From: Dokdonia sp. PRO95
Lineage (GTDB): Bacteria; Bacteroidota; Bacteroidia; Flavobacteriales; Flavobacteriaceae
Assembly: GCF_000355805.1 (NCBI RefSeq)
Contig: NZ_CM001837.1
Coordinates: forward strand, 137,434-201,433
Reading direction: 5' to 3'
DNA: 64,000 nt
The notes under the pieces were generated by a model. It made no database searches. It was not told the DNA's origin and saw only the letters and a list, made by a program, of their open reading frames with translations. The position numbers were made by a program, and so were the translations under genes. Shown here one piece after another: positions 4,028 through 63,029 of this stretch (position 1 is its first letter; each line of letters starts with the position of its first letter).

Positions 4028-4043
4028 CATTTTCGCGAAAGCG
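4028..4043. repeat. TTTCGCGAAA palindrome, one-armed form
   Basis: Core TTTCGCGAAA with a GCG arm only on the right; the left side reads AT, the pattern seen in all one-armed copies. Intergenic, between mazG and DUF5606. Confidence 0.9.
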
Positions 4044-4060
4044 TAACCACCATTAAAACT

Positions 4061-4096
4061 AAAAAAGCCTTTACACATAAACTGTAAAGGCTTTTT
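4061..4096 (-). terminator. Intrinsic terminator between DUF5606 and mazG
   Basis: The 14-base arm AAAAAGCCTTTACA pairs with TGTAAAGGCTTTTT across a 7-base loop, with A/T runs on both sides. It sits 22 bases past the end of the DUF5606 gene and should end the ruvX-def-DUF5606 transcript. It could work in either direction. Confidence 0.85.
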
Positions 4097-4117
4097 AATA
4101 TTATAAAAAGTTATGCA

Positions 4118-4543
4118 CTATTCCTCTTCTTCGCTTGCTGCTGCAGGAGCTGCTGGCGCTTCAAAATTGAGCATATCTTTTGCTTGTAAGATGTTGTACC
4201 ACTGTACTACCTTTTTGATGTCACTAGCATACACACGATCCTCATCATAATCTGGAACTACGTTAAAGAAAAACTCTTCAAGTTCATCTTTTGACACTTT
4301 ATGATTAATAGTAGGTGCTCCGTTTTCTTTATCTTTTATAGCTTGTAATACCTCTCTCAGTGGCTTTTCTTCACTTAGGGTATAGATAGCAATTTCTGAA
4401 AGTACACTTACATTATGACGAATACCTACAGTAATTCTCTTACCATCTACAAGAGATTCTGCCACAAAACCACTACGTGTTTGCTTCTTTAACTCATATA
4501 TTCCAGGCTTTCCAGCGATTGCAATTACTTTATCTAAACTCAT
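4118..4543 (-). CDS. DUF5606 family protein
   Basis: A 141-residue cytosolic protein of a Bacteroidota-restricted family with no established function. The N-terminus (MSLDKVIAIAGKPG) and the middle (FFNVVPDYDEDRVY, then DIKKVVQWYN) match what I recall of DUF5606 members. The N-terminal half looks like a small beta domain, the C-terminal half is helical, and the tail is rich in Ala and Glu. It follows def by 99 bases in a conserved block with ruvX and def, which hints at a house-keeping role in translation or nucleic-acid upkeep, but this is guilt by association only. Confidence 0.8.
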   Translation of the reverse strand: MSLDKVIAIAGKPGIYELKKQTRSGFVAESLVDGKRITVGIRHNVSVLSEIAIYTLSEEKPLREVLQAIKDKENGAPTINHKVSKDELEEFFFNVVPDYDEDRVYASDIKKVVQWYNILQAKDMLNFEAPAAPAAASEEEE

Positions 4544-4642
4544 ATGTTATTAAAATTGGGTGGCAAAGATGCACTTTGCGATACTTATTTACAAATTTTG
4601 TTTGCAAGGATTTGTTAATCTTCACAGAAGACCTTGAGAATA

Positions 4643-5233
4643 CTAGCGTTTTTTTGATGCAGCCGGAAAACGCATACGATATTCTGCACTGCACTTCCCT
4701 TTTGAGATATTTGCGAGCTTCCCTTTTATTAAGCGTTTTTTAAGACTAGAGAGTTTATCTGTAAAAAGTATACCATCTATGTGGTCATACTCGTGCTGTA
4801 TCACACGTGCTATAAGACCATCATAAGTCTCTGTATGCTCTTTAAAGTTTTCGTCTTGATACTTGATGGTTACCGTAGGCTTTCTAAAAACATCTTCGTT
4901 TATACCAGGTATGCTCAGGCACCCTTCAGAAAAAGCCCACTCCTCGCCTTCTTCTTCTAGAATCTCTGCATTGATAAAGGTTTTCTTAAAGCTAGATAGC
5001 TGCTTTTGCTCCTCTGCTGTAAAGCTCTCATCATCTGCAAATGGTGTTGTATCTACAAGAAAGATGCGTATAGGTAATCCCACTTGTGGTGCTGCAAGGC
5101 CTACGCCGTGCGCTCCATACATTGTCTCATACATATTCTCAAGGAGCTCACTAAGATTAGGATACTCTGGAGTAATGTCTTTTGCCTTTTTCTTAAGCAC
5201 GGGACTTCCGTATGCTACTATAGGTAATATCAT
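4643..5233 (-). CDS. def: Peptide deformylase
   Basis: Removes the formyl group from the initiator methionine of new proteins. The 196 residues contain all three signature motifs: GVGLAAPQVG (43-52), EGCLSIPG (103-110, metal ligand Cys105) and HEYDH (147-151, metal ligands His147 and His151, catalytic Glu148). An insertion between motifs I and II and a basic C-terminal tail are common in Bacteroidota enzymes. The start is two bases after the ruvX stop, so the two genes are almost certainly co-transcribed and translationally coupled. Confidence 0.97.
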   Translation of the reverse strand: MILPIVAYGSPVLKKKAKDITPEYPNLSELLENMYETMYGAHGVGLAAPQVGLPIRIFLVDTTPFADDESFTAEEQKQLSSFKKTFINAEILEEEGEEWAFSEGCLSIPGINEDVFRKPTVTIKYQDENFKEHTETYDGLIARVIQHEYDHIDGILFTDKLSSLKKRLIKGKLANISKGKCSAEYRMRFPAASKKR

Positions 5234-5235
5234 AT

Positions 5236-5646
5236 CTATTTATTATACAGGTAATCCTGCAGTATAATGGTTGCACTTATTTGATCTACAAGTGCTTTGT
5301 TTTGTCTTTTCTTTTTACCGATGCCGCTATCTAGCATAGTCTGGAAAGCCATCTTTGAGGTAAAACGTTCATCTTGCCTAATGATTTCAAGCTCGGGATG
5401 TTTTTTTTCTACGCTTTCGCGAAAGCGTACAATATCTACCTCTACATCACTCGCCTCATTATTCATGCGCTTAGGCTCACCTATCACCATAGCCTCCACT
5501 TTCTCTTCTGAAAGATATTTCTTTAAAAATGTAAAGATATCCTTAGTATCAACAGTTGTAAGACCAGAAGCGATCATTTGCAACTCATCTGTCACTGCAA
5601 TACCAGTGCGCTTTGTTCCATAATCTATTGCAATGATGCGTGCCAT
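5236..5646 (-). CDS. ruvX: Holliday junction resolvase-like YqgF/RuvX
   Basis: A 136-residue RNase H-fold protein of the YqgF/RuvX family, linked to pre-16S rRNA 5'-end processing and proposed to act as a resolvase. The N-terminal ARIIAIDYGTKRTGIAV carries the first catalytic Asp, VIGEPKRMN matches the family GxP loop, and ERFTSKMA and ALVDQISATIILQDYL complete the conserved pattern. It heads the ruvX-def-DUF5606 run. A full copy of the TTTCGCGAAA palindrome lies inside the coding frame and encodes the residues RFRES. Confidence 0.95.
   Translation of the reverse strand: MARIIAIDYGTKRTGIAVTDELQMIASGLTTVDTKDIFTFLKKYLSEEKVEAMVIGEPKRMNNEASDVEVDIVRFRESVEKKHPELEIIRQDERFTSKMAFQTMLDSGIGKKKRQNKALVDQISATIILQDYLYNK
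5412..5427. repeat. TTTCGCGAAA palindrome inside ruvX
   Basis: A two-armed copy (ACGC and GCGT arms) in the ruvX coding frame, read as RFRES on the minus strand. It is one of three coding copies in the window. Confidence 0.9.
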
Positions 5647-6773: not shown

Positions 6774-6774
6774 T

Positions 6775-11584: not shown

Positions 11585-11747
11585 TTGCTAAAATTTACAT
11601 CTACCTAAAAACAAGCGTTTTATAGACAGATGGGTTTTGTATTTTACGTTTCTGCGAAAGCTTCATAAACCTAGAAACCGTAAAAGGGTTTGTTTTATTT
11701 TTTAAATACCTCAATGGCAGCTTTCTAAAGGTGGCCAAAAAGGAGTG

Positions 11748-11778: not shown

Positions 11779-12041
11779 GGGGTTGTGAGATAAAAAAGCG
11801 TCTCCATAATTATCCTCCATTCCTAGAAGAACAAACTTACTCTTCTAAGGCTATTAAACCCACTAATTACAAAGATTAAAGCCATATGCCTAAGCTTATT
11901 ACACACAAGATCTTGTCGTAAATTTTACAAAAAAATAACAAGCCTAAAGGAAAACCGTAAACAAGTGTGAAAATCTATTTGTAGATTCGCTAAGTCCATT
12001 TTCACTTAAACACTAAAAAGTATTGATTCTTAGAATTTTAA

Positions 12042-12057
12042 CGCTTTCGCGAAAGCC
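12042..12057. repeat. TTTCGCGAAA palindrome, two-armed form
   Basis: Core with an ACGC left arm and a GC right arm (third base changed to C). Intergenic, upstream of the lipoprotein gene at 12171. Confidence 0.9.
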
Positions 12058-12170
12058 CATTTCTATAATAATCTACCCATATATTTAGAAAGCCATCGAA
12101 ATATTAACCAAGTGAGAAATTGCAACAAGATGATAATCTAGGACAGCACTTTAAATAAACTCAATAAACA

Positions 12171-15886: not shown

Positions 15887-15963
15887 TGATTACAAATGGC
15901 ATTCGTAATAGCTTTATCAAACTAGCAGCTTACAGCATATTCTGATTAAATTGAGTGGTGCTA

Positions 15964-15979
15964 CGCTTTCGCGAAAATA
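15964..15979. repeat. TTTCGCGAAA palindrome, one-armed form
   Basis: Core with the CGC arm on the left and AT on the right. Intergenic, in the 276-base gap before the TlpA-like gene. Confidence 0.9.
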
Positions 15980-16162
15980 TGCACACAATAACTATTTCTA
16001 GTAGCGAGACACGCTGCGCTAGATTTACAAATAAGTGTATATTTAGACAATCAATTAAAAAACAAGTAATTGCACATACTTTAAGTAATATCAGATTTTC
16101 AATGAGACTTCTATGATTTGATCTCTGTTTGCTTTGTAAGATTGTTTTTTATCCGCTCACAA

Positions 16163-17611: not shown

Positions 17612-17812
17612 GAAATGCCATTAATATTTATACACTCCCGTAGTTGCACGGCGCCATTTCATAATCAGGATTATGGCACAGCGTTATCAACCTAACAACA
17701 TAAAGAGTAATATGGTAAAAAAGGAATTGGATCTATAAAAACAAGATTACTTCTGCTTTATTTCCGCAAGCTTAATCCTCAATTTGATTTACTAAAGTAT
17801 CAAATCACTTCA

Positions 17813-17828
17813 CATTTTCGCGAAAGCG
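17813..17828. repeat. TTTCGCGAAA palindrome, one-armed form
   Basis: Core with GCG on the right and AT on the left. Convergent intergenic region. Confidence 0.9.
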
Positions 17829-17880
17829 CACTTATTTTTTATACCACGTATCATAGCGCATAAAATTCTTACAACAATAA

Positions 17881-17909: not shown

Positions 17910-17944
17910 CCTTCTTTGGAGCCCCCTAAACCCCATTCTAGCCT

Positions 17945-17960
17945 TGCTTTCGCGAAAGCG
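17945..17960. repeat. TTTCGCGAAA palindrome, two-armed form
   Basis: Core with TGC and GCG arms, 20 bases beyond the stop codon of the M48 protease gene. Confidence 0.9.
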
Positions 17961-17980
17961 TAGAAATCTTTAAACCGTTG

Positions 17981-25466: not shown

Positions 25467-25654
25467 AAATAAAAATCTGGATATTGATTTCGTGTAGTAG
25501 TGCAAAGAAGTAATTGTTTTGAATAAATAAGATTGCTATAATTTTCAGAAACAATCATGAGCTCAACAAATATAACCTTATGATGTAATCTATTAAAGAT
25601 TATTAGAATGTCATCTGATATTATGACCCACAATTTAAGCACTAGAATTTATTA

Positions 25655-25670
25655 CGCTTTCGCGAAAGCG
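25655..25670. repeat. TTTCGCGAAA palindrome, two-armed form
   Basis: Core with TTACGC on the left and GCGCAA on the right. Intergenic, in the divergent region upstream of the ankyrin-repeat gene. Confidence 0.9.
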
Positions 25671-25745
25671 CAACTCGACTTCTCAACTAAGCATAAGTAA
25701 TTTATCTAGCAAATATTATATCTTTAAGCTACCAATCAAAACTAA

Positions 25746-26780: not shown

Positions 26781-26801
26781 GCAAAGTTTTAAATCAAAAT
26801 G

Positions 26802-26823
26802 TTACGCTTTCGCGAAAGCGTAA
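26802..26823. repeat. TTTCGCGAAA palindrome, perfect 22-base form
   Basis: A perfect 22-base palindrome: core flanked by TTACGC and GCGTAA. It lies 22 bases after the ankyrin-repeat gene's stop, just ahead of the TetR operator. Confidence 0.95.
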
Positions 26824-26840
26824 TTCAAAACAAAAAATAG

Positions 26841-28311: not shown

Positions 28312-28511
28312 TTGTTTATGAGCACTATGTGTTTTTAAATGAATATTTCTCTTTTTCCACCTCTTTGCGGAAATCCGTAGCGAGATTTTAAAAAGAGTTT
28401 GTAGTTTCGTTTTGAGAAGCTACTAAACATTAAAAAAAATTACGACTGTATTGTTTTACGCTTTCTCAAAAGTTTAAATTAAGACATTACTAAACATCAA
28501 CTAATCAATAA

Positions 28512-29159: not shown

Positions 29160-29192
29160 AAAAACATCCCATTATCATCAACCCCAATTCCC

Positions 29193-29208
29193 TATTTTCG
29201 CGAAAGCA
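29193..29208. repeat. TTTCGCGAAA palindrome, one-armed form
   Basis: Core with a shortened GCATA right arm and AT on the left, 34 bases after the membrane-protein gene. Confidence 0.9.
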
Positions 29209-29247
29209 TAACTAATTATTATAAAAATAAATCACTTCATCTCATTA

Positions 29248-29748: not shown

Positions 29749-29785
29749 TTACATAAATGCCTTAACAAAGATTTAATCGAAATCC

Positions 29786-29801
29786 TATTTTCGCGAAAGC
29801 G
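29786..29801. repeat. TTTCGCGAAA palindrome, one-armed form
   Basis: Core with GCGTAA on the right and AT on the left, 38 bases after the small exported-protein gene. Confidence 0.9.
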
Positions 29802-29840
29802 TAATTATCTATCTTTATCTAGCACTTTAAAAACAAGCAT

Positions 29841-32688: not shown

Positions 32689-34080
32689 ATGAAGACCAAG
32701 TACATTGATCTCATCGAGCAAACGTATTATTTCCCACAAGAGGAATTTAATCTCAACAAAAACCATCTTGAGTTTCACGGCATTGACCTAATGAAACTTG
32801 TAGAGCAATATGGTGCACCACTTAAGTTTACTTATCTACCTAAAATCTCTGATAACATACAGCGAGCAAAAAAATGGTTTGCAGATGCTATCGAGGCAAA
32901 TGGTTATGAAGGAAGCTATAACTACTGCTACTGTACAAAAAGCTCACACTTTAAGCATGTACTCAATGAGGCGTTGTCTAATAATATCCACATCGAGACT
33001 TCGTCTGCATTTGACATAGATATCGTAGAGAGCTTAAAGGCTGCTGGAAAAATAACAGACGACACCTATGTAATAAGCAATGGTTTTAAACGTGATAGAT
33101 ACGTAGAAAACATCGCACGCCTAATTAACAATGGTCATGAAAATGCAATTCCAGTAATTGACAATTATGAGGAGATAGAACTACTAAGTAATCAGATCAA
33201 TGGTAAATTTAAAGTAGGTATTCGAATCGCATCTGAAGAGGAGCCTAAGTTTGAATTCTACACCTCAAGACTTGGAATAGGATATAAAAATATCGTTCCA
33301 TTCTTTAATAACCAGATCAAAAATAACGAGAAAGTTGAGCTTAAAATGCTTCACTTCTTTATAAATACAGGTATACGCGACACCGCATATTACTGGAACG
33401 AGCTCATGAAGTGTATTAAAGTGTACATTAATCTTAAAAAGATTTGTCCGTCACTTGATAGTCTAAACATAGGTGGAGGTTTCCCTATTAAAAACTCGCT
33501 TGCCTTTGAGTATGATTATGCATACATGATTAACGAGATCATCGCACAAATCAAACAAGCTTGTGATGATGCTGATGTAAAAGTGCCACATATTTTTACT
33601 GAGTTTGGCAGCTTTACTGTTGGTGAAAGCGGTGGAGCTATTTATGAAGTACTTTACCAGAAGCAACAAAACGACCGTGAGAAGTGGAACATGATTAACT
33701 CTTCATTTATCACAACATTACCAGATACCTGGGCTATAAATAAACGTTTTATCATGCTAGCGGTAAATCGCTGGAATGAGGAATATGAGCGTGTATTATT
33801 AGGAGGTCTTACCTGTGATAGTGATGACTATTACAACAGTGAGCAGCATATGAACGCGATTTATATGCCTAAGTACAAAAAGGACAAACCACTTTACATA
33901 GGTTTCTTTAATACTGGGGCGTACCAAGAGTCTATAGGGGGTTTCGGCGGACTGCAACACTGCCTTGTTCCTTCTCCTAAGCATATCCTTATTGACCGGA
34001 ATGAAGATGGAGAGATTACCACAGAAATATTTGCAGAGCAGCAGACTAGTGATCAATTGCTAGGCATTTTAGGGTATTAA
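32689..34080 (+). CDS. speA: Arginine decarboxylase, PLP fold III
   Basis: Converts arginine to agmatine, the first step of polyamine synthesis. 463 residues, the short type known from Bacteroidota, with an alanine racemase-like barrel. The PLP-binding Lys is probably Lys84 in YCTKSS, and LNIGGGFP (Gly-rich phosphate loop) and GAYQESIGGFGG near the C-terminus are the other hallmarks. Agmatinase follows 112 bases later, and a palindrome copy lies four bases after its stop. Agmatinase next door argues strongly for arginine over lysine or diaminopimelate as substrate. Confidence 0.9.
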   Translation: MKTKYIDLIEQTYYFPQEEFNLNKNHLEFHGIDLMKLVEQYGAPLKFTYLPKISDNIQRAKKWFADAIEANGYEGSYNYCYCTKSSHFKHVLNEALSNNIHIETSSAFDIDIVESLKAAGKITDDTYVISNGFKRDRYVENIARLINNGHENAIPVIDNYEEIELLSNQINGKFKVGIRIASEEEPKFEFYTSRLGIGYKNIVPFFNNQIKNNEKVELKMLHFFINTGIRDTAYYWNELMKCIKVYINLKKICPSLDSLNIGGGFPIKNSLAFEYDYAYMINEIIAQIKQACDDADVKVPHIFTEFGSFTVGESGGAIYEVLYQKQQNDREKWNMINSSFITTLPDTWAINKRFIMLAVNRWNEEYERVLLGGLTCDSDDYYNSEQHMNAIYMPKYKKDKPLYIGFFNTGAYQESIGGFGGLQHCLVPSPKHILIDRNEDGEITTEIFAEQQTSDQLLGILGY

Positions 34081-34083
34081 ACA

Positions 34084-34099
34084 CGCTTTCGCGAAAGCA
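34084..34099. repeat. TTTCGCGAAA palindrome, two-armed form
   Basis: Core with CGC and GCA arms, starting four bases after the speA stop codon. Confidence 0.9.
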
Positions 34100-34192
34100 A
34101 AACAAAAAATATTAAATAAATTATATAACCACTAACAGTAACAACACCGAGAAAACAACATTCTCACTTTACATCTAACATCTAGTATCACC

Positions 34193-36914: not shown

Positions 36915-36949
36915 ATAGGGCAGTTGGTCATACCTTCTGCCCTATTTTT
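36915..36949 (+). terminator. Terminator of the small exported-protein gene
   Basis: A 9-base stem ATAGGGCAG/CTGCCCTAT with a 13-base loop, followed by TTTTT. Confidence 0.85.
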
Positions 36950-36963
36950 ATGGATTTGATGTA

Positions 36964-36979
36964 CGCTTTCGCGAAAGCG
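36964..36979. repeat. TTTCGCGAAA palindrome, two-armed form
   Basis: Core with TACGC and GCG arms, in the gap between the terminator at 36915 and the PLP-enzyme gene. Confidence 0.9.
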
Positions 36980-37028
36980 GTATTCCCTCCACACCAAGTA
37001 GTACTCCACAAGTTTAAGTTTTAAAATT

Positions 37029-42405: not shown

Positions 42406-42536
42406 GAGTATGTATTTTACACAAAAATAGGAAAACGTATGCTAGTGCTTACCATATAGATTTAAAGATTATTTCTACTAGTATAGATGAGCATACTCGC
42501 TTCTTTAAATAGAAGAAAGCGACACCATGACTCGCT

Positions 42537-42606
42537 AGCCCCGATTGCAATGAAAATCCCGCAGTGTAGCGATAGCGCAACGAGGAATTGTAATGAAAAG
42601 CGGGAA
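42537..42606 (+). repeat. Dispersed hairpin repeat, copy 1
   Basis: About 70 bases whose ends match the copy at 57049 in reverse orientation. The left end (CCCCGATTGCAATG) and the right end (GAATTGTAATG) contain the shared word ATTGYAATG. The inner TCCCGC and GCGGGA are inverted, so the element can form a hairpin. The middle differs between copies. It lies between porQ's 3' end and cmk, pointing against their transcription. An overlapping reading frame in this element is not a gene. Confidence 0.8.
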
Positions 42607-42656
42607 ACCACCTTGCAAATATGCTCAAAATGGACTGCTCCTAAAATTGAAAAGAA

Positions 42657-43760: not shown

Positions 43761-43794
43761 AAAAAGGGAAACTCGTGATGAGTTTCCCTTTTTA
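43761..43794 (-). terminator. lon terminator
   Basis: A perfect 14-base stem (AAAAAGGGAAACTC with GAGTTTCCCTTTTT) around a loop of about five bases, with A/T flanks. It sits 38 bases beyond the lon stop. Confidence 0.9.
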
Positions 43795-43802
43795 TGGTTT
43801 AA

Positions 43803-43818
43803 CGCTTTCGCGAAAATT
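43803..43818. repeat. TTTCGCGAAA palindrome, one-armed form
   Basis: Core with CGC on the left and AT on the right, 14 bases beyond the lon stop codon. Confidence 0.9.
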
Positions 43819-43831
43819 TGATAAACTATCC

Positions 43832-46285
43832 TTAAGCTAGTTTTTTTGCATTTTTTACTTTTTGCTTAGTAAGTGCTAGTTCTAACACCTCGCTCATGTC
43901 ACTTACATAGTGGAATGTTAAGCCCTTTAAGTAGTCTTGTTTGATCTCTTCTATATCGCGACGGTTCTGCTCACATAAGAGTATCTCCTTAATTTTAGCA
44001 CGCTTTGCTGCAAGAATCTTTTCTTTGATTCCTCCTACTGGCAGTACTTTGCCTCTTAAGGTAATCTCACCTGTCATCGCTAGATTTTTCTTCACTTTAC
44101 GTTGTGTAAATAAAGAAACTAAAGATGTAAGCATAGTGATACCTGCACTAGGTCCATCTTTAGGAGTTGCTCCTTCTGGTACGTGAATGTGTACATTATA
44201 CTTATCAAAGATGGTAGGCTCTAACCCTAGAATCTCGGCGTTTGCTTTAATGTACTCCATGGCTATGGTAGCACTCTCCTTCATCACTTTACCTAAGTTT
44301 CCTGTGATAGATAGTGTCCCCTTGCCCTTTGATAAAGCAGATTCTATAAATAAGATATCGCCTCCTACTCTCGTCCATGCAAGTCCTGTAACTACTCCGG
44401 CAACTTCGTTATTTTCATACTTGTTGCGTTCCATTTTTGGAGAGCCTAGTATCTCAATAACATCTTCATTAGATATTTTCACATTGTACTCTTCTTCCAT
44501 CGCGAGATTTTTTGCCCCGTAACGCACCATTTTTGCAACTTGCTTTTCTAGGCCACGTACTCCAGATTCTCTTGTATATCCTTCTACAATTTTTTCTAGT
44601 TGTGGCTTAGCTATTTTAAGTTGGTCATCTGTCATACCATGCTCTTTAAGCTGCTTAGGTAGTAAGTGACGTTTTGCAATCTCTGTCTTCTCTTCTATCG
44701 TATATCCAGTAACGTTTATAATCTCCATACGATCTAACAAAGCTGGTTGTATGGTATTTAAACTATTTGAAGTAGCGATAAACATCACTTTAGAAAGGTC
44801 ATACCCCATCTCAAGGAAGTTATCGTGAAACTCACTATTCTGCTCTGGATCTAGTACCTCAAGTAATGCAGATGATGGGTCTCCCTGGTTTCCTGCGCTT
44901 AATTTATCTATCTCATCAAGTACAAAAACTGGGTTGCTAGTTCCTGCCTTACGCAAGCTCTGGATAATACGTCCAGGCATTGCTCCTATATATGTCTTTC
45001 TGTGACCGCGTATTTCAGACTCATCACGCATTCCACCTAGACTTACTCTTACGTACTCACGCCCTAATGCTTCTGCAACAGATTTTCCTAGCGAGGTTTT
45101 ACCTACACCTGGAGGTCCGTACAAACATAAAATAGGCGACTTCATATCATTACGTAATTTTAGTACCGCTAGATATTCTATAATACGTTTCTTCACATCA
45201 TCAAGACCATAATGATCACGGTCTAGAATCTTCATCGCGCGTTTTAAATCAAATTTATCTTTAGAGAACTCATTCCAAGGAAGGTCTAAAAATAAATCAA
45301 GATAATTGCGCTGTATGCTATACTCAGCTACCTGAGGATTCATGCGTTGCATTTTTGAAAGTTCCTTATTAAAGTGCTTCTCAACTTTTGCATCCCACTT
45401 CTTTTTCTTTGCGCGTGCACGCATTTCTTCTAGATCATCCTCAGAGCTTGCGCCTCCCAGTTCTTCTTGGATAGTCTTCATTTGCTGGTGCAAGAAATAC
45501 TCACGCTGCTGCTGGCTCATGTCATTTTGAACCTTGCTCTGGATATCATTTTTGAGCTCCAGCTTCTGGCGCTCCATATCCATAAACTTAAGCGTCTCAA
45601 GTGCTCGCATATGCAAGTCGTCTATGTTAAGAAGCTCTTGCTTCTCTGCAACAGAGAGGTTCATGTTTGAACTCACAAAGTTGATTAAGAAAGAATCACT
45701 CTGGATATTCTTAATTGCAAAGGAAGCCTCTGAAGGTATATTTGGAGAGTCTTGGATAATCTTAAGCGACAATTCTTTTATAGAATCGATAACTGCTTTA
45801 AAACCTTGATCTCCTGCTTCTGGGCGTACTTCTACATATTCCTTAATAGTAGCCTTCATATAAGGCTCTACCTGCGTTACTTGATCTACCTCAAAGCGTT
45901 TTTTACCTTGTATGATAACTGTAACATTACCGTCAGGCATTTTAAGCACACGTAAAATACGTGCTACTACACCTACTTTATGAATATCATCTGCAGTTGG
46001 ATTTTCTACTTCTTCATCCTTTTGCGCCACTACTCCTACTACTTTCCCTCCCTTATTTGCTTCATCAATAAGCTTTATAGAAGTATCTCTTCCTGCCGAA
46101 ATAGGAATAACTACTCCAGGAAAAAGCACCGTATTACGTAAAGGTAAAATAGGCAAGCTTTCTGGAAGCTCCTCGTTATTAATTGCCTCCTCATCTTCTG
46201 GAGTCATTAACGGGATTAATTCTGCATCTCCATCTATCTCTTGCAGTGACAATCTGTCTAATGTTGTAAATTTTGGTTTTGCCAT
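43832..46285 (-). CDS. lon: ATP-dependent protease Lon
   Basis: Degrades misfolded and regulatory proteins in the cytosol. 817 residues from the ATG at 46285. A LON substrate-binding domain (about 40-245), a AAA+ module with Walker [10 protein letters not shown] and Walker [10 protein letters not shown], and a protease domain with the Ser-Lys dyad ([11 protein letters not shown] and [18 protein letters not shown]) are all present. The start was set at MAKPKF because a TTG six codons earlier would give an odd MWHTLY leader. A palindrome copy and the lon terminator lie just beyond the stop. No heat-shock promoter element was placed. Confidence 0.97.
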
Positions 46286-46439
46286 ATATAATGTGTGCCA
46301 CAATGTCGCATATTCCTATGCGCCCTGTGGATGTATAACTATTAGTATTCTCTTTAAATATAGCGAGTTTAGCCTATTATAAGATAATGGTTACCCTCAC
46401 GGTAAGCTTTAATTCAATTGTTGTGCCAAGCGAGTACTT

Positions 46440-46455
46440 TGCTTTCGCGAAAATT
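46440..46455. repeat. TTTCGCGAAA palindrome, one-armed form
   Basis: Core with GC on the left and AT on the right, in the lon/sigma-factor divergent region. Confidence 0.9.
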
Positions 46456-46552
46456 TGAAGAAACAACACAAATGCGCGTTCTTTATCTATAATGTAATTA
46501 TCTACTTGTATTAGAGCGATTCAAGATAATGTTATAAAATTTTTACGAAAGT

Positions 46553-49637: not shown

Positions 49638-50477
49638 CTATTCCTCTTTCTTTAAGATTTTTGAAGTTCCTGTAAAACGTTCTATCGTTAATTTAGGTTC
49701 ACCATATACTTGAAGTTGTGCTTTATCTGCAAGATCTACAACAATCTCTTGATCTGCAGTTACAATTGTTGTTGTGCTTCCTACGCCTATTACATTAATC
49801 ACATCTGTATTAAAAGTTTGAGCTCTACACTCTGCATTATCTTTTAAATCCAGCGTTACCGTTTGAGCATTTCCCATTAACTCTAGGTCTGTTCTTTCAG
49901 ATGCCGAGAGCGTGAATTTTTTAGTGTTGATATCTGCTTTCGCGAAAGCGTTATCTGTAACACTCACAGTCAGATCATCTCCCATATAATCCATCTCTAT
50001 TTTTGAATTTGAATTTGCCGTTATGGTAGCTTGGGTTGCTTTTATCTCCCCTTGAAACTGGCTATCATCTAGAAAGTTTCCTGTAAAAGAATCTGCTTTA
50101 AGAATGGATTGCGCTTTCACTTTACTCTTAGCATCTAGACTTACAGAATTGAGCGTAACAAAACGCACGGTAATATTAAGACGTTTTGCACTTCTGATAT
50201 CTTTTCTAGCCGAAACTAACAATAGACTATCACGCACATCAAAGCTTATGAGTTCTATAAGGTTATCATCCATCTCAAGATCATAGCCTGGTTGAGAATC
50301 TGCTATAAGTGTTACTTCTAGACCATCTGTTACTTTAATATCTGTAAATGGGCGTAATACTTCAGATACATCTTTCACATTTCTACTTCCTTTTACTCGC
50401 TCCCTTTGAGCGCATACAGTCGCAGTCACAAACATGAGCATAGCAATAGCTATACCTTTCATATATATTTTTTTCAT
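49638..50477 (-). CDS. GIN-domain (DUF2807) exported protein
   Basis: 279 residues with a signal peptide (about 1-23) and a GIN domain (TDIKVTDGLEVTLIADSQPG, then repeated short strands such as SILKADSFTGNFLDDSQ). It shares its fold with the two genes across the terminator but lies on the other strand. A palindrome copy sits inside its frame and encodes AFAKA. Function unknown. Confidence 0.8.
   Translation of the reverse strand: MKKIYMKGIAIAMLMFVTATVCAQRERVKGSRNVKDVSEVLRPFTDIKVTDGLEVTLIADSQPGYDLEMDDNLIELISFDVRDSLLLVSARKDIRSAKRLNITVRFVTLNSVSLDAKSKVKAQSILKADSFTGNFLDDSQFQGEIKATQATITANSNSKIEMDYMGDDLTVSVTDNAFAKADINTKKFTLSASERTDLELMGNAQTVTLDLKDNAECRAQTFNTDVINVIGVGSTTTIVTADQEIVVDLADKAQLQVYGEPKLTIERFTGTSKILKKEE
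49935..49950. repeat. TTTCGCGAAA palindrome inside the GIN-domain gene
   Basis: Two-armed copy in coding sequence, read on the minus strand as AFAKA. This is a different frame from the RFRES copies in ruvX and glgA. Confidence 0.9.
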
Positions 50478-52199: not shown

Positions 52200-52241
52200 C
52201 TTGTAATAGCGGGATTTTTTTACGCTTTCGCGAAAGCGTAA
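52200..52241. repeat. Perfect TTTCGCGAAA palindrome with a possible repeat remnant
   Basis: The perfect 22-base palindrome occupies 52220-52241, two bases beyond the MFS gene's stop. The 20 bases to its left (CTTGTAATAGCGGGATTTTT) resemble the right end of the dispersed hairpin repeat and may be a remnant of it. Confidence 0.75.
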
Positions 52242-52242
52242 C

Positions 52243-53559
52243 CTACGTAATTACCGTTCTGTCTTTAGGCACTCGAAGTAATAGTAAGACACCTGCTGCA
52301 AAAAATAAAATTAAAAACACAATCGAATAGCGCATGCTTCCAGTAAGTTCCTCTATGAAACCATATAGAAACATACCGATGATGATCCCTATTTTCTCGG
52401 CAACATCATAAAAGCTGAAGTATGAGGTGGTGTCCTCTGTTTCTGGTAAAAACTTAGCATAGGTAGATCGTGATAGTGATTGTATACCACCCATTACTAA
52501 ACCTACAAACCCAGCAGTAATGTAAAATTGGAACGGCGTATACACAAAGTATGCCCAGCCACAAATTACGATCCAAATAATATTAATAATTACCAGTGCC
52601 TTTATATTACCCACACGCGCCGAAAGTTTTGAAGTAAGTATAGCTCCCAGCACTGCTACAAGTTGTATTAAAAGTATACTCACAATTAATCCCGTCGTGC
52701 GCTCGCTATCACTACCCCACTCTAGTTCTTGCTCTCCAAAATATGCTGCAGCAAGCATCACTGTCTGTACGGCCATACTGTATACAAAAAAGGCGATAAG
52801 ATACTTTTTAAGACGTAGTTGGTCTTGCATAGACGACCAAATAGCTCTTAACTCCTTAAAGCCATTAAAGAATACATCTTTGGTAAGCTTTCCTTGTGCT
52901 TGATTTCCTTGAGGCAAATAGGCGTAGGTATACTGACTAAAACCTATCCACCAGACTCCAGTAAGAACAAATGATAAACGTGTGGGGAAACCTTCGTCTT
53001 CAAAACCAAATGTTTCATACCCAAGTATCATTGCTAGACAAACTACAAGTAGCAGCACGCTCCCTATGTACCCTAGGGAATATCCCTTTGCACTTATCTT
53101 ATCATGCTGCTCCGGATGCGCAATATCTGGCAAGTATGAATTGTAAAAAACTAGACTTCCCCAGAAACCTATAAGTCCCAATGCGTATAACGTAAGACTC
53201 AAGTATATATGCTCAAGGCTAAACCAGTATAAACCTATTGTAGAGAAAGCTCCTAGATAGCAAAAGAGTTTTAAAAAGAATTTCTTATTGCCCAGATAAT
53301 CTGCCACTCCAGAGAGAATAGGAGAAATAATAGCTACTATTAAAAAGGCAACCGCTGTGGTATAAAATATAAGCGGGCTACGACGCAGCATCATCCCAAA
53401 AACTTCAATCTCTTCTATACCGGCTCCTCTAAAAAGAGCTCCATAAAATAATGGAAATATAGCAGATGCAATGACAAGACTGTAGGTGGAGTTTGCCCAG
53501 TCATAAAATGCCCAAGCATTTAATAATTTCTTGTCACCTTTTTTGAGTTGTTCTTTCAT
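52243..53559 (-). CDS. UMF1-type MFS transporter
   Basis: 438 residues with about 12 membrane helices. The N-terminal NAWAFYDWANSTYSLVIAS is the hallmark of the UMF1 (Atg22-like) family of MFS transporters. Bacterial members have no settled substrate; a nutrient or metabolite exporter role is possible. Its 3' end abuts a perfect palindrome copy, and the M48 protease gene lies upstream on the same strand, 63 bases away behind a terminator. Confidence 0.88.
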   Translation of the reverse strand: MKEQLKKGDKKLLNAWAFYDWANSTYSLVIASAIFPLFYGALFRGAGIEEIEVFGMMLRRSPLIFYTTAVAFLIVAIISPILSGVADYLGNKKFFLKLFCYLGAFSTIGLYWFSLEHIYLSLTLYALGLIGFWGSLVFYNSYLPDIAHPEQHDKISAKGYSLGYIGSVLLLVVCLAMILGYETFGFEDEGFPTRLSFVLTGVWWIGFSQYTYAYLPQGNQAQGKLTKDVFFNGFKELRAIWSSMQDQLRLKKYLIAFFVYSMAVQTVMLAAAYFGEQELEWGSDSERTTGLIVSILLIQLVAVLGAILTSKLSARVGNIKALVIINIIWIVICGWAYFVYTPFQFYITAGFVGLVMGGIQSLSRSTYAKFLPETEDTTSYFSFYDVAEKIGIIIGMFLYGFIEELTGSMRYSIVFLILFFAAGVLLLLRVPKDRTVIT

Positions 53560-56886: not shown

Positions 56887-57196
56887 GGTAATTGTTATTT
56901 TACTCTCAAATAAACACTATATCGTGTAAAAATGAAGTTAATTCGTAATTAGTTATTAACGCTAACGTTTTCGTAAGCTCAGAAATGGTATTTATATGAC
57001 TTTTAGAGGATTTAGAACACACAATCATTGCTCTTTATCTAGATCTTCATCCCGCTTTACATTACAATTCCTCATCGCGACTTGGGTCTGCTCTTGCGGG
57101 ATTTTCATTACAATCGGGGTTATAGAGTCCCGCAAGTGTGCATTTATATAAGCCTCATTATTTTCTCTGTTTACCAAATTGAAATGTAGTCACTAA
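56887..57196. other. Intergenic region between glgB and the GH31 gene
   Basis: A 310-base gap. It contains the dispersed hairpin repeat at 57049-57122 and otherwise AT-rich sequence, presumably with the GH31 promoter, which I could not pin down. Confidence 0.5.
57049..57122 (-). repeat. Dispersed hairpin repeat, copy 2
   Basis: The reverse complement of 57049-57122 matches the copy at 42537 at both ends (CCCCGATTGTAATG and GAATTGTAATG), with the inverted TCCCGC and GCGGGA inside. It points in the same direction as the glycogen genes. The middle 25 bases differ from copy 1. Confidence 0.8.
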
Positions 57197-59110
57197 CTAC
57201 TTCTTCAATTCAAAAATCACTCCCGCCAAAGGCCCTATTTTCACCACCGCCGAGTGATCTTTTCCATTCCAAGAGGTTTGGGTAACATCTAATGCTTTGT
57301 TATGATAATCACCAGTACCAGCATACTTACTTGCGTCGCTGTTATATATTTCGCGTAAGCTTCCTTTAAAAGGTAACCCTATGCGATACTGAGGTTGGGG
57401 TGTAGGTGTCATATTAAACACACACACAACTACACTATTCTCATCATTGCCCCTTCTAATGTAACTTAGTACGGCATTTGTATTATCGTCATGTGCAATC
57501 CATTCAAAACCTTCTGGTTCAAATTGCTTCTCGTACAATGCTGGTGTACTTGTATACAGACCATTAATATCTTTAAAAGCACTTAGTGCTGCTTTGTGAA
57601 TATCATATTCTAGCACGTACCAATCTAGTTGTTCTTGAAAATTCCACTCTGTACCTTGACCAAATTCGCTTCCCATAAATAGCAATTTCCCACCCGGATG
57701 CGTATACATATAGGTATACAGAAGACGAAGATTTGCAAAGCGTTGCCACTCATCACCAGGCATTCTACCTATAATAGAATTTTTACCATAAACCACCTCA
57801 TCATGAGATAAGGGTAGCATAAAGTTTTCTGTAAAACCATAGGTCATTGAGAAGCTAATCTCATTGTGGTGATGATTTCTATAGATAGTATCTCTTTTAA
57901 AGTAAGCAAGGCTATCGTGCATCCATCCCATCATCCACTTCATCCCAAAACCTAAACCTCCTGAAAATACTGGCCTACTCACTGCTGGAAAATTAGTAGA
58001 CTCCTCTGCAATGGTTTGAACATCTGGAAAACTAGCATACACCTCTGCATTAAGCTCCTTTAGAAACGAAATTACAGCGAGGTTTTCTCTCCCTCCTTGA
58101 TCATTAGGCTCCCACTCGCCTTCTTCCCTACTATAATCGAGGTAAAGCATAGAAGCTACAGCATCTACTCTCAAGCCATCTACGTGATATTGCTCTAACC
58201 AGAAGAGCGCATTACTAATCAAGAAGCTTCTCACTTCACTACGTTCGTAATTGAATATAAGTGACTTCCAGTCGGGATGCCATCCTTTCTTTCTATCTGG
58301 GTGCTCGTAACAGGCTGTCCCATCAAAGTTACCAAGACCGTGCGCATCTTCTGGAAAATGAGAAGGTACCCAGTCTAAAATTACTCCAATGTCATTTTGA
58401 TGCAACGCATCTATCAAAGTCATTAACTCCTCAGGATATCCAAATCGAGAGGTAGGCGCAAAATATCCTGTAATTTGATAACCCCAACTAGGATCATAGG
58501 GATGCTCCATTACTGGCATAAACTCCACATGTGTAAAGTTTAATTCTTTTACGTAAGCCACGAGTTCGCTGGCTAGTTCGGTATAACTAAGGCTGCGGTT
58601 TCTTTCTTCCTGCTTTCTTCTCCAACTCCCTAGGTGCATCTCATACACCGAGTAAGGTGCACTAAGACTATTATGCTTGTGGCGTTTTTTCATCCACGCA
58701 CCATCCTTCCAGTTATGATTTGTTTTATAAACTACAGAAGCGGTTTGAGGTGGGTGCTCTGCTCGTCTCGCATACGGGTCTGCCTTTTCTGTAACAACAC
58801 CGTTGTGGTTGGAGTGAATTTTGTATTTGTATACTTCACCATGAGATACTTTTGGGATAAAACCTTCCCAAATCCCGCTTCCATCCCATCGTACGTTGAG
58901 AATATGCTCGTCCTCATTCCAGTAATTAAAATTACCTACTACAGATACGCGTTTTGCACTAGGTGCCCATACGGAAAAATAAGTTCCATCTACACCGTCT
59001 ACAGTTATGGCGTGACTACCCATTTTATCATGGAGACGGTAGTGTTTTCCTCCCTTAAAAAGGTCAATGTCAAATGCTGTAAATAAGCTATGTGCTATTA
59101 CTTCTGCCAT
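57197..59110 (-). CDS. glgB: 1,4-alpha-glucan branching enzyme
   Basis: Adds alpha-1,6 branches to glycogen. 637 residues: an N-terminal CBM48 domain (about 35-125, YFSVWAPSAKRVSVVGNFN) and a GH13 barrel with the nucleophile Asp316 (DGLRVDAV), the acid/base Glu369 (TIAEESTNFP) and SHDE at 434-437. A C-terminal beta domain follows. The start codon overlaps the glgC stop by one base (TAATG), so the two are coupled. Confidence 0.97.
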   Translation of the reverse strand: MAEVIAHSLFTAFDIDLFKGGKHYRLHDKMGSHAITVDGVDGTYFSVWAPSAKRVSVVGNFNYWNEDEHILNVRWDGSGIWEGFIPKVSHGEVYKYKIHSNHNGVVTEKADPYARRAEHPPQTASVVYKTNHNWKDGAWMKKRHKHNSLSAPYSVYEMHLGSWRRKQEERNRSLSYTELASELVAYVKELNFTHVEFMPVMEHPYDPSWGYQITGYFAPTSRFGYPEELMTLIDALHQNDIGVILDWVPSHFPEDAHGLGNFDGTACYEHPDRKKGWHPDWKSLIFNYERSEVRSFLISNALFWLEQYHVDGLRVDAVASMLYLDYSREEGEWEPNDQGGRENLAVISFLKELNAEVYASFPDVQTIAEESTNFPAVSRPVFSGGLGFGMKWMMGWMHDSLAYFKRDTIYRNHHHNEISFSMTYGFTENFMLPLSHDEVVYGKNSIIGRMPGDEWQRFANLRLLYTYMYTHPGGKLLFMGSEFGQGTEWNFQEQLDWYVLEYDIHKAALSAFKDINGLYTSTPALYEKQFEPEGFEWIAHDDNTNAVLSYIRRGNDENSVVVCVFNMTPTPQPQYRIGLPFKGSLREIYNSDASKYAGTGDYHNKALDVTQTSWNGKDHSAVVKIGPLAGVIFELKK

Positions 59111-60378: not shown

Positions 60379-60407
60379 GTTTGTGTTGCTTTTAGAGTTT
60401 GGTATTT

Positions 60408-61835
60408 TTATTTTTTTATGTTGACTTCCTTAGGTATCATTTCTTTATATAATGAGACATAGGTTTCTGCTGCGTTTTCCCAGCTGTGGTCTATCTCCAT
60501 CATTTGTTTTTGATTTGCACTAAAGGCTTTCTTATCCTTATAAAAAAGAGAAGCGCGCTCTATGCTGTATACAACATCCCATACAGAAGTTTGATCATGA
60601 CAAATACCATGACCGCCATCCCCTATATCTATAACTGTATCTTTTAACCCTCCAGTGCGTCGCACAATAGGCATACAACCATATCTTAAGCTATATAACT
60701 GATTTAAACCGCAAGGTTCAACCCTACTAGGCATTAAAAGAAAATCTGCTCCAGCATATACTTGATGTGACATCCTTTCTTCATAACCTATATGAGCATT
60801 ATATCTTCCTTTATACTTGGTCTTAAGTTCCTCTAGCTGGCGTTCTACTTCTTGCGAGCCGCTCCCTAATAAAATGATATTAATATCATGCTGTTTTAAA
60901 GCAGTATCAATAATCTCAGGTAATAAATCTGCTCCTTTCTCCCAGACCAGCCTACCTATAAACCCGAAAAGTGGTTTTGAGGCGTCTAACCCAAACTCAT
61001 CACAAATAGCCTTTTTATTAGCCTCACGGCCTTTAACTCTCGTTCTTATTGTATAATTTTTAATAAGGTAATCATCTGTAGCAGGGTTCCATGTTTCGGC
61101 ATCAATACCGTTTAGAATCCCCACGCACTTTGATTTTTCGTCTCTAAGCAAGCCTTCTAGTCCATTTGCTTTTTCTTGTAATTCCACCATATATGATGGA
61201 GATACAGTATTCACTCGCCATGCACATTTAATAGCAGCAGCAAGTGGGTTTATATCACCGTACCAATCTAGGAGTCCTTTATCGCTTTCGCGAAAGCGTG
61301 GTAACATTCCAACCATATCGTGTGAGAAGTTACCTTGATACTGCGCATTATGTATAGAAAGTAAGGTAGGTACTTTCATAAGGCTATCAAACTCTGGGCA
61401 ACGTTGCATCATAAAAGGTATAAATCCTGTATGATGATCATGGCAATGCATGATATCTAGTTTTTTCTTTAAACTTAACACCCATTGTAGCACTACTCGT
61501 TGAAAAGCAACAAAACGCAATGGATCATCTTCATATCCATATACCTTCCTTCTATCTGTAAGCTCTGTGATTCTGACTAAAAACAATGGAAAACCCAGCT
61601 CATTATCTACATCTATAACTTCGCCAAAATACGTTGTACCCTCTATGACTATGTTGTGAAAAAAGACTATAGAACCTGTCGCCCGTTCCACCCAGCTCGT
61701 TTTATAATACGGCATTATCACCGCAGCAGTATGACCTATGCGATTTTGATATTTTGGGAGAGCACCAACCACATCTGCTAGCCCGCCTACTTTTGCAACA
61801 GGATAACACTCGGCACTTACATGAAGAATATTCAT
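60408..61835 (-). CDS. glgA: Glycogen synthase
   Basis: Elongates glycogen with ADP-glucose. 475 residues, a GT5 GT-B enzyme. The N-terminal KVGGLADVVGALP carries the KxGGL motif, HNAQYQGNFSHD and the ADP-binding PSRVEPCGLNQLYSLRYG are present. It heads the glgA-glgC-glgB-GH31 run. A palindrome copy lies inside the frame and encodes RFRES. Confidence 0.97.
   Translation of the reverse strand: MNILHVSAECYPVAKVGGLADVVGALPKYQNRIGHTAAVIMPYYKTSWVERATGSIVFFHNIVIEGTTYFGEVIDVDNELGFPLFLVRITELTDRRKVYGYEDDPLRFVAFQRVVLQWVLSLKKKLDIMHCHDHHTGFIPFMMQRCPEFDSLMKVPTLLSIHNAQYQGNFSHDMVGMLPRFRESDKGLLDWYGDINPLAAAIKCAWRVNTVSPSYMVELQEKANGLEGLLRDEKSKCVGILNGIDAETWNPATDDYLIKNYTIRTRVKGREANKKAICDEFGLDASKPLFGFIGRLVWEKGADLLPEIIDTALKQHDINIILLGSGSQEVERQLEELKTKYKGRYNAHIGYEERMSHQVYAGADFLLMPSRVEPCGLNQLYSLRYGCMPIVRRTGGLKDTVIDIGDGGHGICHDQTSVWDVVYSIERASLFYKDKKAFSANQKQMMEIDHSWENAAETYVSLYKEMIPKEVNIKK
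61283..61298. repeat. TTTCGCGAAA palindrome inside glgA
   Basis: Two-armed copy in coding sequence, read on the minus strand as RFRES, the same frame as in ruvX. Confidence 0.9.
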
Positions 61836-62133
61836 AGTTTCAGGTAATTAGGTAATATCTTAAATGTAACTATTATTAAGAGTACAACTCTTTATGAGCT
61901 ATTAAATATAGGTTAAATCATAAATAACTAAGCATGAATTATTCACATTTATAAGGTACAAAATCAAGGGATATCATAATTTATTAATAATATTATTACA
62001 ATACATGACCAGCAGATGTATATTTTATGTCGTTATATACAAGTTTAAAATTGAGGATACCATGTCATTTTCACAATGCTTTAACGACCAAGTCTACAGT
62101 AATGAATTAACTTTACTTAAAAAGAAAATTGAT

Positions 62134-62613
62134 ATGAAAAGAATAATAGGAGTATTTGCTTTATTAAGCATTTTTACTAGTTGCACAGGGTCTGCTCAAG
62201 AGAGCAAAAAAGAAAGCTTTGAGGTTACAAAAACAGATGCGGAATGGAAAGCACAGCTAACCGAAGAACAATATTATGTATTGCGTTTAGAAGGTACAGA
62301 GCGACCTAACTCTAGCCCGCTCAATAATGTAAAAGAAGCGGGAACTTTTCACTGTGCTGCTTGTGACACACCGCTTTTTAAAACAAAAAATAAATTTGAT
62401 AGTGGAACTGGCTGGCCTAGTTTTGACAGAGGTATAGAAGGAAATATAGCATATAGCTCTGATCGTAAACTTGGTTATACAAGAACCGAAGAGCATTGTG
62501 CTACATGTGGAGGACATCTAGGACACGTTTTTAACGACGGACCTAAAGAAACTACAGGAAAAAGACATTGTATTAATGGAGATGCACTCGTATTTGTGCC
62601 AGAATCAAAATAA
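62134..62613 (+). CDS. msrB: Methionine sulfoxide reductase B, lipoprotein form
   Basis: Reduces methionine-R-sulfoxide. 159 residues. A lipoprotein signal (MKRIIGVFALLSIFTSC) anchors it in the envelope. The Zn Cys pairs are Cys74/77 (FHCAACD) and Cys122/125 (HCATCGG), and the catalytic Cys146 is in RHCIN. I used the ATG at 62134; a frame opening 129 bases earlier at an ATG gives a non-signal leader with no support. Another msrB follows one base after its stop. Confidence 0.93.
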   Translation: MKRIIGVFALLSIFTSCTGSAQESKKESFEVTKTDAEWKAQLTEEQYYVLRLEGTERPNSSPLNNVKEAGTFHCAACDTPLFKTKNKFDSGTGWPSFDRGIEGNIAYSSDRKLGYTRTEEHCATCGGHLGHVFNDGPKETTGKRHCINGDALVFVPESK

Positions 62614-62614
62614 T

Positions 62615-63004
62615 ATGAGTTACCCAATACAAAAAACGGAGGCAGAATGGCTCGAGGAGCTAGGCCCAGAACGTTATCGCATACTGAGAGAAAAAGGAAC
62701 AGAACGCCCATTTACTGGAACTTATAATCTACACAACGAAGAAGGCGCTTACCATTGCGGTGCCTGTGACCAAAAGCTTTTTGAAAGCGCATCAAAATTT
62801 GACAGTGGTTGTGGATGGCCTAGTTTTGACGAGTCCATCCCAGGAACTGTAGAGTATGTACGTGACAAATCACTGGGAATGATAAGAACGGAAATTCTAT
62901 GTTCTAATTGCGGTTCTCACTTAGGACACGTTTTTGACGATGGCCCTACTGCAAGCGGACAACGATACTGTGTAAATTCACTAAGTATAGATTTTGAAAA
63001 ATAA
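62615..63004 (+). CDS. msrB: Methionine sulfoxide reductase B, cytosolic form
   Basis: 129 residues, no signal peptide, so a cytosolic MsrB. The Zn Cys pairs are Cys48/51 (YHCGACD) and Cys96/99 (LCSNCGS), the catalytic Cys119 is in RYCVN. It starts one base after the lipoprotein msrB, so the two form an operon with an envelope and a cytosolic version. A perfect palindrome copy follows four bases after its stop. Confidence 0.95.
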   Translation: MSYPIQKTEAEWLEELGPERYRILREKGTERPFTGTYNLHNEEGAYHCGACDQKLFESASKFDSGCGWPSFDESIPGTVEYVRDKSLGMIRTEILCSNCGSHLGHVFDDGPTASGQRYCVNSLSIDFEK

Positions 63005-63007
63005 GAA

Positions 63008-63029
63008 TTACGCTTTCGCGAAAGCGTAA
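63008..63029. repeat. TTTCGCGAAA palindrome, perfect 22-base form
   Basis: Perfect 22-base palindrome, four bases after the second msrB stop and just before a terminator. Confidence 0.95.

Follow-up and report, generated by a model that had tools for sequence, protein, structure and literature searches.

A 64,000-nucleotide stretch of the genome of Dokdonia sp. PRO95 (Flavobacteriaceae; genome label G000), covering positions 137434-201433 of its single 3,305,093-bp contig and here termed the window, carries 18 exact copies of a short palindrome, TTTCGCGAAA, where 0.04 are expected from dinucleotide shuffles. These are the copies, at the same places, that a sequence-only reading of the window had counted and considered strongly over-represented. 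The palindrome is referred to below as the core, and the 14-mer GCTTTCGCGAAAGC is the core with a GC arm on both sides. The whole PRO95 genome contains 1018 cores, or one per 3.2 kb, compared to 10 for a reversed-word control, and a 464-kb PRO95 sample, made up of the window and twenty 20-kb stretches, contains 147 sites versus 0.43 expected from a third-order Markov model (294 versus 0.87 with both strands counted); a genome-wide count against a Markov background had been named beforehand as the refuting test. Each of the twenty 20-kb samples holds 3-10 copies with no obvious trend along the chromosome, no formal test being applied and the origin being unmapped. Among the titles and opening abstract lines listed by literature searches, exact-word ones included, there was no description of the element, with subscription journals not covered.

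Eleven of the window copies have a GC arm on both sides (GC/GC), while the remaining seven combine one GC arm with one AT arm and lie precisely where the sequence-only reading placed them. They are listed here, with no strand assigned, by the span of the whole element and of the core, arm type, location relative to predicted genes (taken throughout from our own open reading frame caller) and state of the core at the orthologous site. The relatives include Dokdonia 4H-3-7-5 (G301) and Dokd-P16 (G303).

4010..4061, core 4031-4040: AT/GC, intergenic; core changed in G301 (TTTCGCAAAA), kept in G303; GC/GC in G299, G304, G313
5394..5445, core 5415-5424: GC/GC, inside a predicted gene (FRES frame); exact in G301, G303, G299, G304, G313
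12024..12075, core 12045-12054: GC/GC, intergenic; exact in G303, the sole relative aligned there
15946..15997, core 15967-15976: GC/AT, intergenic; exact in G301, G303
17795..17846, core 17816-17825: AT/GC, convergent gap, 132 bp to next copy; exact in G301, G303
17927..17978, core 17948-17957: GC/GC, convergent gap, 24 bp from a stop codon; exact in G303
25637..25688, core 25658-25667: GC/GC, divergent gap; exact in G303
26787..26838, core 26808-26817: GC/GC, perfect 22-bp palindrome (from 26802), intergenic, 28 bases from a stop codon; exact in G303, G313
29175..29226, core 29196-29205: AT/GC, tandem gap; exact in G301, G303
29768..29819, core 29789-29798: AT/GC, tandem gap; exact in G301, G303, G299, G313; lost in G304
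34066..34117, core 34087-34096: GC/GC, 7 bp after a stop codon; exact in G301, G303; a G304 copy aligns 52 bp away instead
36946..36997, core 36967-36976: GC/GC, tandem gap; exact in G301, G303, G304
43785..43836, core 43806-43815: GC/AT, 17 bp past the lon stop codon; kept in G301; lost in G303, G308; GC/GC in G299, G304, G313
46422..46473, core 46443-46452: GC/AT, upstream of lon; lost in G301, G308; kept in G303, G299, G313
49917..49968, core 49938-49947: GC/GC, inside a gene (AFAK frame); exact in G301, G303, G308, G299, G304, G313
52205..52256, core 52226-52235: GC/GC, perfect 22-bp palindrome (from 52220), 8 bp past a stop codon; exact in G301, G303, G308, G299, G304, G313, G300
61265..61316, core 61286-61295: GC/GC, inside a gene (FRES frame); exact in G301, G303, G308, G313
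62993..63044, core 63014-63023: GC/GC, perfect 22-bp palindrome (from 63008), 10 bp after a stop codon; exact in G301, G303, G308 (left arm changed in G308); lost in G313, in a gapped alignment

The third G of the arm is missing on one side in four of the eleven GC/GC copies (12045, 17948, 34087 and 49938). The three 22-base palindromes at 26802, 52220 and 63008 are present as had been reported, but their extension does not define a class, since the arms do not covary overall. The count of at least six copies within about 25 bases of a stop codon was slightly generous: there are five (17948, 34087, 43806, 52226 and 63014), and 26808 lies at 28. The window also has two Flavo-1 RNA matches over the Rfam threshold, at 42533-42611 on the forward and 57044-57125 on the reverse strand.

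Anatomy of the dyad and its AT arm variant

The unit is a dyad of approximately 52 bp, comprising GCTTTCGCGAAAGC and symmetrical flanks that avoid G, because outward-strand G is depleted on either side only as far as about position 20-21. At Dokdonia sites (280 with wide margins, some of which are orthologues of each other), the outward-strand G frequency is 0.04-0.14 at positions 6-20 against a background of 0.186, and then reaches 0.12 at position 21 and 0.19 at position 22. Read outward from the core, the flanks are GCGTAA-like in Dokdonia and GCG(A/G)AA in Nonlabens, and, whether a copy is coding or noncoding, both of its flanks are G-poor. In Nonlabens the flank G frequency is 0.01-0.10; the depletion stops clearly at 21-22 in coding copies, but G remains low (0.06-0.13) farther out in noncoding ones. 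In G190, a carrier of a third genus, the depletion is weak. The depletion in Dokdonia is also relaxed at positions 10 and 16 before it ends at 22, a possible 6-bp rhythm that is weak in Nonlabens and is not relied on. In the Dokdonia set the two arms show no covariation overall, and at positions 7-12 they match less often than shuffles do (z −4.7), the exception being the single position 15, which matches more (z 3.7). Overall, then, each arm varies without regard to the other, with matches avoided at positions 7-12, and the element is therefore not an extended hairpin.

The word itself is kept with great exactness. GC arms flank the core on both sides at 118 of the 147 PRO95 sites and no site lacks GC on both sides; the one-sided variants are AT (17), AA (6), AC (3), GT, AG and TC (1 each). 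This agrees with the earlier argument that the alternative arm is not simple decay. Exact 14-mers and one-mismatch sites stand at 118:9 in PRO95, 124:13 in Nonlabens and 57:22 in G190, which, with 42 possible one-mismatch words and a mutation-selection formula quoted in PMC2397512, correspond to 2Nes of ∼6.3, ∼6.0 and ∼4.7, respectively. The exact to one-off ratio of 2.4 for the DNA uptake sequence (DUS) of Neisseria, quoted in the same paper, gives ∼4.3 by the same formula. G190, with 22 one-mismatch to 57 exact copies, weak flanks and little intergenic preference, gives the impression of a system that is either young or in decay.

In some Dokdonia the AT arm is a genuine variant of noncoding copies, but it does not form a universal class. 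It is found in 7 of the 18 window copies versus 10 of 129 in the rest of the PRO95 sample, a share that does not generalize from the window, and all 17 AT arms of that sample are noncoding (17/76, including three copies near stretch ends, versus 0/71 coding copies; Fisher p 6e-6). By genome, its share is 17/147 in PRO95, 6/17 in Dokd-P16, 3/16 in 4H-3-7-5 and 3/21 in each of G299 and G313, with none in G304 (0/16), G308 (0/7), Dokdonia sinensis SH27 (G206; 0/31), G306 with G300 (0/7) or G190 (0/78) and one in 130 in Nonlabens. The two functional classes proposed by the sequence-only reading thus hold only for part of Dokdonia. The AT arms share a trend to AT(G/T)TGA (32 arms from seven related genomes, which are not independent).

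Placement, conservation and carriers

The window is atypically intergenic, with 3 of its 18 copies inside predicted genes versus 71 of 147 in the PRO95 sample, where about half of the copies lie in genes. The coding copies are read through in frame, 43 of the 71 in the frame reading AFAK. In several genes the element also supplies AFAKA at what appear by eye to be the ends of signal peptides (e.g., L034 5991 and 6723, L042 6900 and L045 17862), and there it looks, again by eye, like a DNA tag shaping protein sequence. The density between genes is nevertheless 7-fold that within genes in PRO95 (1.28 versus 0.175 per kb), and it is 0.76 versus 0.13 in Nonlabens and 0.30 versus 0.16 in G190. By type of gap, there are 1.40 copies per kb in tandem, 1.11 in divergent and 1.01 in convergent gaps. 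Tandem-gap copies are nearer to the upstream stop than to the downstream start in 40 of 49 cases in PRO95, 23 of 29 in Nonlabens and 6 of 10 in G190, so that the 3'-end bias first noticed in the window stands as a lean toward the stop side in such gaps.

The copies are more evenly spaced than expected by chance in three lineages. Spacings of less than 1 kb number 15 of 126 in PRO95, 3 of 56 in G190 and 2 of 102 in Nonlabens, versus 39.9, 11.4 and 25.8, respectively, in 1000 simulations that kept the gene layout. Counts per 20 kb are likewise under-dispersed in PRO95, G190 and Nonlabens (variance/mean 0.45, 0.56 and 0.43; p 0.02, 0.05 and 0.005). Among the first 100 sites listed, only two pairs are less than 500 bp apart, the window pair 17816/17948 (132 bp) and G000:C1 324155/324291 (136 bp), and their spacings are almost the same.

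Sister strains had been proposed as a source of orthologous copies, and stretches from nine relatives were compared, of which all but G306 and G206 could be aligned at one site or more, leaving seven. Tallied over alignable sites, leaving out those with unaligned flanks, and among relatives that share history and are not independent, the exact core is kept in 56 of 64 comparisons (GC/GC 35/37; AT 21/27). The AT-arm sites tend to be lost more (6/27 versus 2/37, p 0.06), and two of them (4031, 43806) are GC/GC in certain relatives. Conversely, there are copies in relatives that are absent from the window, at 28462 (in G303, at the alignment edge, and G313), at 57349 (G299, G304 and G313) and, in G304, at 11650, 30233 and 34139. 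Where presence/absence sites are well aligned (e.g., 11650, 30233, 57349 and 28462), the homologous bases differ by substitutions, while the gapped alignments at 34087/34139 and 63014 are uninformative on substitution versus insertion.

All 18 Dokdonia genomes carry the 14-mer, in 369-905 copies (control 0). In the 13 of them with completeness of at least 93%, copy number rises only weakly with genome size (rounded sizes; slope 46 per Mb, r 0.34, mean density 214 per Mb). A survey of 299 genomes of the family, sampled out of a larger group and representing 236 genera, found more than 34 copies in only five, namely PRO95 and G206 (Dokdonia), G010 and G242 (Nonlabens, the latter Nonlabens xylanidelens DSM 16809) and G190, so the carrier genera in this sample are three. 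In a phylogenetic tree of Lon, Dokdonia (17 of 18 genomes) forms one clade, G190 belongs to a loose assemblage surrounding that clade, and the single Nonlabens genome is placed elsewhere on a long branch; the three carrier lineages are not grouped as one clade with confidence. The distribution of carriers looks patchy, by independent origin, transfer or loss. No comparable high-copy "dialect" word was found in 100 kb of each of the non-carriers G087, G157 and G175, words of fewer than eight letters being invisible to the search. Another non-carrier, G254 (L370-L374), has local repeats only, of the words GTCGCTCCTT, CGTCATTGCG and TGAGTGGTGA.

A scan of named genomes gave at least 111 stretches with a match, and the best 80 of the 111 (records near PRO95 may be left out) comprise 31 from Dokdonia, 20 from Nonlabens, 4 from strain BBFL7 and 25 scattered ones. 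Thirteen of the scattered stretches, classed as "other" (mean G+C 0.58), are without G-poor flanks (G 0.31), and the remainder have one to three copies each. Altibacter lentus (G101) and Aquimarina (L415:115-4401) have few elements overall, but those with proper flanks are clustered in patches; Altibacter contains a few such clusters, and in Aquimarina two elements lie inside one outer-membrane efflux gene that is adjoined by a multicopper oxidase. An element pair 933 bp apart occurs in both Aquimarina and Altibacter and may reflect shared DNA from a carrier lineage.

The element is also found in phage contigs. A scan of viral contigs gave at least 120 stretches with a match, and among the best 80 of these 120 at least 11 hold two or more full 14-mers, most of the others being chance-like. 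Of 16 tabulated phage contigs, 14 have 35-46% G+C, 2-5 cores (at least two of them full elements) and a flank G of 0.02-0.18, at densities of 0.10-0.25 cores per kb that come mostly from stretches chosen for containing a match; 6104 and 2026 of sample 3300040801, with a single 14-mer apiece, were not counted. Contig 3300040801_003070, which was covered over its whole length, has 5 cores in 27 kb. An integrase or Mu-type transposase is encoded by at least five contigs (L219, L227, L267, L311 and L314), and portal, head or tape-measure proteins are found in some of these and in others. In contrast, the Nonlabens phages P12024S and P12024L, of which 30 of 35.7 kb was read in each, have no core, no TCGCGA and no annotated integrase in that part, and carry ERF and YqaJ recombination proteins. 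In one element-bearing IMG/VR contig (L247:7628-9370), the first 42 residues of a protein weakly match an SbcC-like family (E 9e-6), and proteins of the SbcC type cleave palindromes.

A possible self-DNA tag and its rivals

The DNA-uptake-like tag and the nucleoid-protein site, both among the candidates of the sequence-only reading, stay in play. The reading preferred here, quite possible if short of probable, is that the element may serve as a self-DNA tag acting like a DUS. A sequence-specific receptor would recognize the 52-bp dyad on kin DNA, and DNA bearing the element would be taken up or recombined more often, such that alleles with the element would replace alleles without it by molecular drive. 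This drive would fill permissive places, such as intergenic gaps and tolerant stretches of protein like AFAKA at apparent signal-peptide ends, and would come to a halt wherever an existing copy falls within the length of a typical conversion tract. Uptake would rely not on a type IV pilus but on transformation machinery of the Flavobacteriaceae type, described in Riemerella; two of its components, ComEC and a DUF5689-family protein, are present. Taken together, the exact word, intergenic preference, even spacing, copy number that hardly follows genome size and presence in integrating phages form the signature to be expected of molecular drive acting through biased uptake or recombination. The clustered elements in Altibacter and Aquimarina and the absence of cores from P12024S and P12024L as read also speak for this reading. 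A wider proposal is more doubtful, namely that Bacteroidota would here have their first self-tag of the uptake type, with a palindromic signal of ∼52 bp, a type-IV-pilus-independent receptor and one dialect for Dokdonia, Nonlabens, the third genus, their temperate phages and donated genes, which would define a gene-exchange community across genera.

The DUS of Neisseria and the uptake signal sequences (USS) of the Pasteurellaceae resemble the element in their over-representation of hundreds-fold, strict orthologous conservation, even spacing and extended flank preferences. In PMC2397512, the DUS profile is one of strict conservation, permissive places in the core genome and spacing that matches conversion tracts; the signature just given for the element matches these reports. 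A pilus-independent transformation system and its genes have been described in some Flavobacteriaceae (PMC8459023). According to PMC7965970, Riemerella columbina prefers its own DNA, with no tag proven, and the word table printed there holds only A-rich words of unproven role.

Several points weigh against a self-tag. ComEC and DUF5689 domains are present in 28 of 28 genomes tested, equally in the 14 non-carriers among them, and therefore neither pinpoints a specific receptor, which is the main gap; the DUF5689 protein was itself rejected as the receptor, as it is universal among the 28 and has no carrier-specific insertion among ten aligned. The ATPase of type IV pili and type II secretion systems (PF00437) is below the family cut-off in six of seven carriers tested, including PRO95, and over it only in N. 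xylanidelens, and the classical pilus uptake machine is therefore missing in PRO95. DUS and USS words are asymmetric, while the element is a dyad, and a perfect dyad with a symmetrical frame suits a dimeric intracellular DNA-binding protein at least as well. Copies with one mismatch are scarcer than those described for DUS. The contrast among phages involves two related phages, 30 of 35.7 kb of each, with the element status of the host strain unchecked, and the contig densities carry the selection noted above. The uptake role in Dokdonia and Nonlabens is one we infer. For want of the pilus and of asymmetry, the element is not filed as a DUS or USS, from which it differs in its perfect palindrome, 52-bp symmetrical frame, occurrence in Bacteroidota, lack of the pilus ATPase in PRO95 and fewer one-mismatch copies, and a DUS is probably what it works most like.

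A nucleoid or Chi-like role is retained among the serious rivals, since a dimer inside the cell would fit the symmetrical frame equally well. In the nucleoid version, which is rather unlikely, a lineage-restricted dimeric nucleoid or condensation protein would bind the 52-bp dyad, the evenly placed sites would fold or segregate the chromosome and resident prophages would adapt to it. The perfect dyad, with a frame that ends at ∼20-21 most sharply in Dokdonia, the even spacing, the absence of an obvious chromosomal trend in the twenty 20-kb samples, a sequence identity far stricter than usual and the occurrence in integrase or transposase phage contigs but not in P12024S or P12024L as read all fit such a site. 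Palindromes of the Noc-binding or parS type may resemble the element in a TTTC...GAAA dyad, and the element differs in its many more copies and in half-site spacing. The proposal requires, however, that selection act effectively on every one of ∼1000 sites, and this in three lineages that are not confidently one clade in the Lon tree, copy number only weakly follows genome size and no protein candidate was found. A bidirectional Chi-like signal is less likely still: AddAB arriving from either end would read the palindrome on the 3'-ended strand and switch to recombination, and the G/T-rich strand 5' of the site would favor RecA loading. The 3' strand 5' of the core is indeed G/T-rich and C-poor, the frequency is near that of Chi in Escherichia coli (∼1000 per genome), all 18 genomes tested have an AddB-like gene and 12 of them also a second match that is AddA-like (both named from size and family), and P12024S and P12024L have recombination proteins of their own (ERF and YqaJ) and no copies. 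Known Chi sites are short and asymmetric, whereas the element is palindromic, 14 bp long and far more exact; conservation per site this strict is unexpected for Chi, and the non-carriers G087, G157 and G175 have no comparable word within the limits given above. AddB was rejected as the determinant of the element, since its tree of 18 genomes, six of them carriers, does not unite the carrier lineages, and the element is not filed as Chi, AddAB being present but its subunit not tracking the element.

Iteration of the type of the cyanobacterial highly iterated palindrome (HIP1), driven by a DNA methyltransferase and methylation-directed repair, is improbable. According to PMC4390886, HIP1 is a genome-wide palindrome in coding and noncoding DNA whose one-off copies are common and biased to the ends. 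The element is likewise a genome-wide, lineage-restricted palindrome in both kinds of DNA, and there are C5-methylase matches in PRO95 (two), G206, G299 and G010 and an N4/N6 match in G010 and G190. Compared to HIP1 and the alternate HIPs, its 14-bp core has long flanks rather than being 8 bp, it occurs once per ∼3.2 kb and 7-fold more densely between genes, its one-off copies are rare and its 52-bp frame is unexplained by this mechanism. C5/N4 methylases were rejected as the cause, as G301, G303, G304, G313 and G242 carry hundreds of copies with neither a C5 (PF00145) nor an N4/N6 (PF01555) match over the cut-off (G301 has one below), the N6-adenine families PF02086 and PF02384 being untested, and a strict kinship with HIP1, another suggestion of the sequence-only reading, is not supported in view of these methylase results and the rarity of one-off copies. 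There is very little to be said for a mobile repeat, either a repetitive extragenic palindrome (REP) or the related REPIN spread by a REP-associated tyrosine transposase (RAYT), or a miniature inverted-repeat transposable element. The element is palindromic, of high copy number and enriched between genes, and Y1_Tnp proteins occur in three of seven carriers (G206, G010 and G242), but there are none in the other four (G000, G299, G301 and G190), which refutes RAYT there and is why the element is not filed as a REP, while half of the copies are in genes, the coding copies are in frame and well-aligned absences are substitutions rather than insertions. Equally remote is an RNA element, either a terminator or the mRNA 3' stabilizer that had been listed as a candidate; it would account for the lean of tandem-gap copies toward the upstream stop given above. 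Against it stand the 71 of 147 copies inside genes, the divergent gaps that carry as many copies per kb as convergent ones and the G-poor flanks, found on either side of coding and noncoding copies without distinction, and an RNA hairpin was rejected, as the arms neither pair nor covary overall and anti-match at positions 7-12.

If the element does act as a self-DNA tag, Dokdonia and Nonlabens provide a strong candidate word with which the recognition of kin DNA becomes directly testable in the Flavobacteriaceae. If it is instead a site of the nucleoid or Chi type, it would be an unusually exact and regular one. Either way, it is a cheap sequence marker for DNA, phages included, that has passed through these genera.

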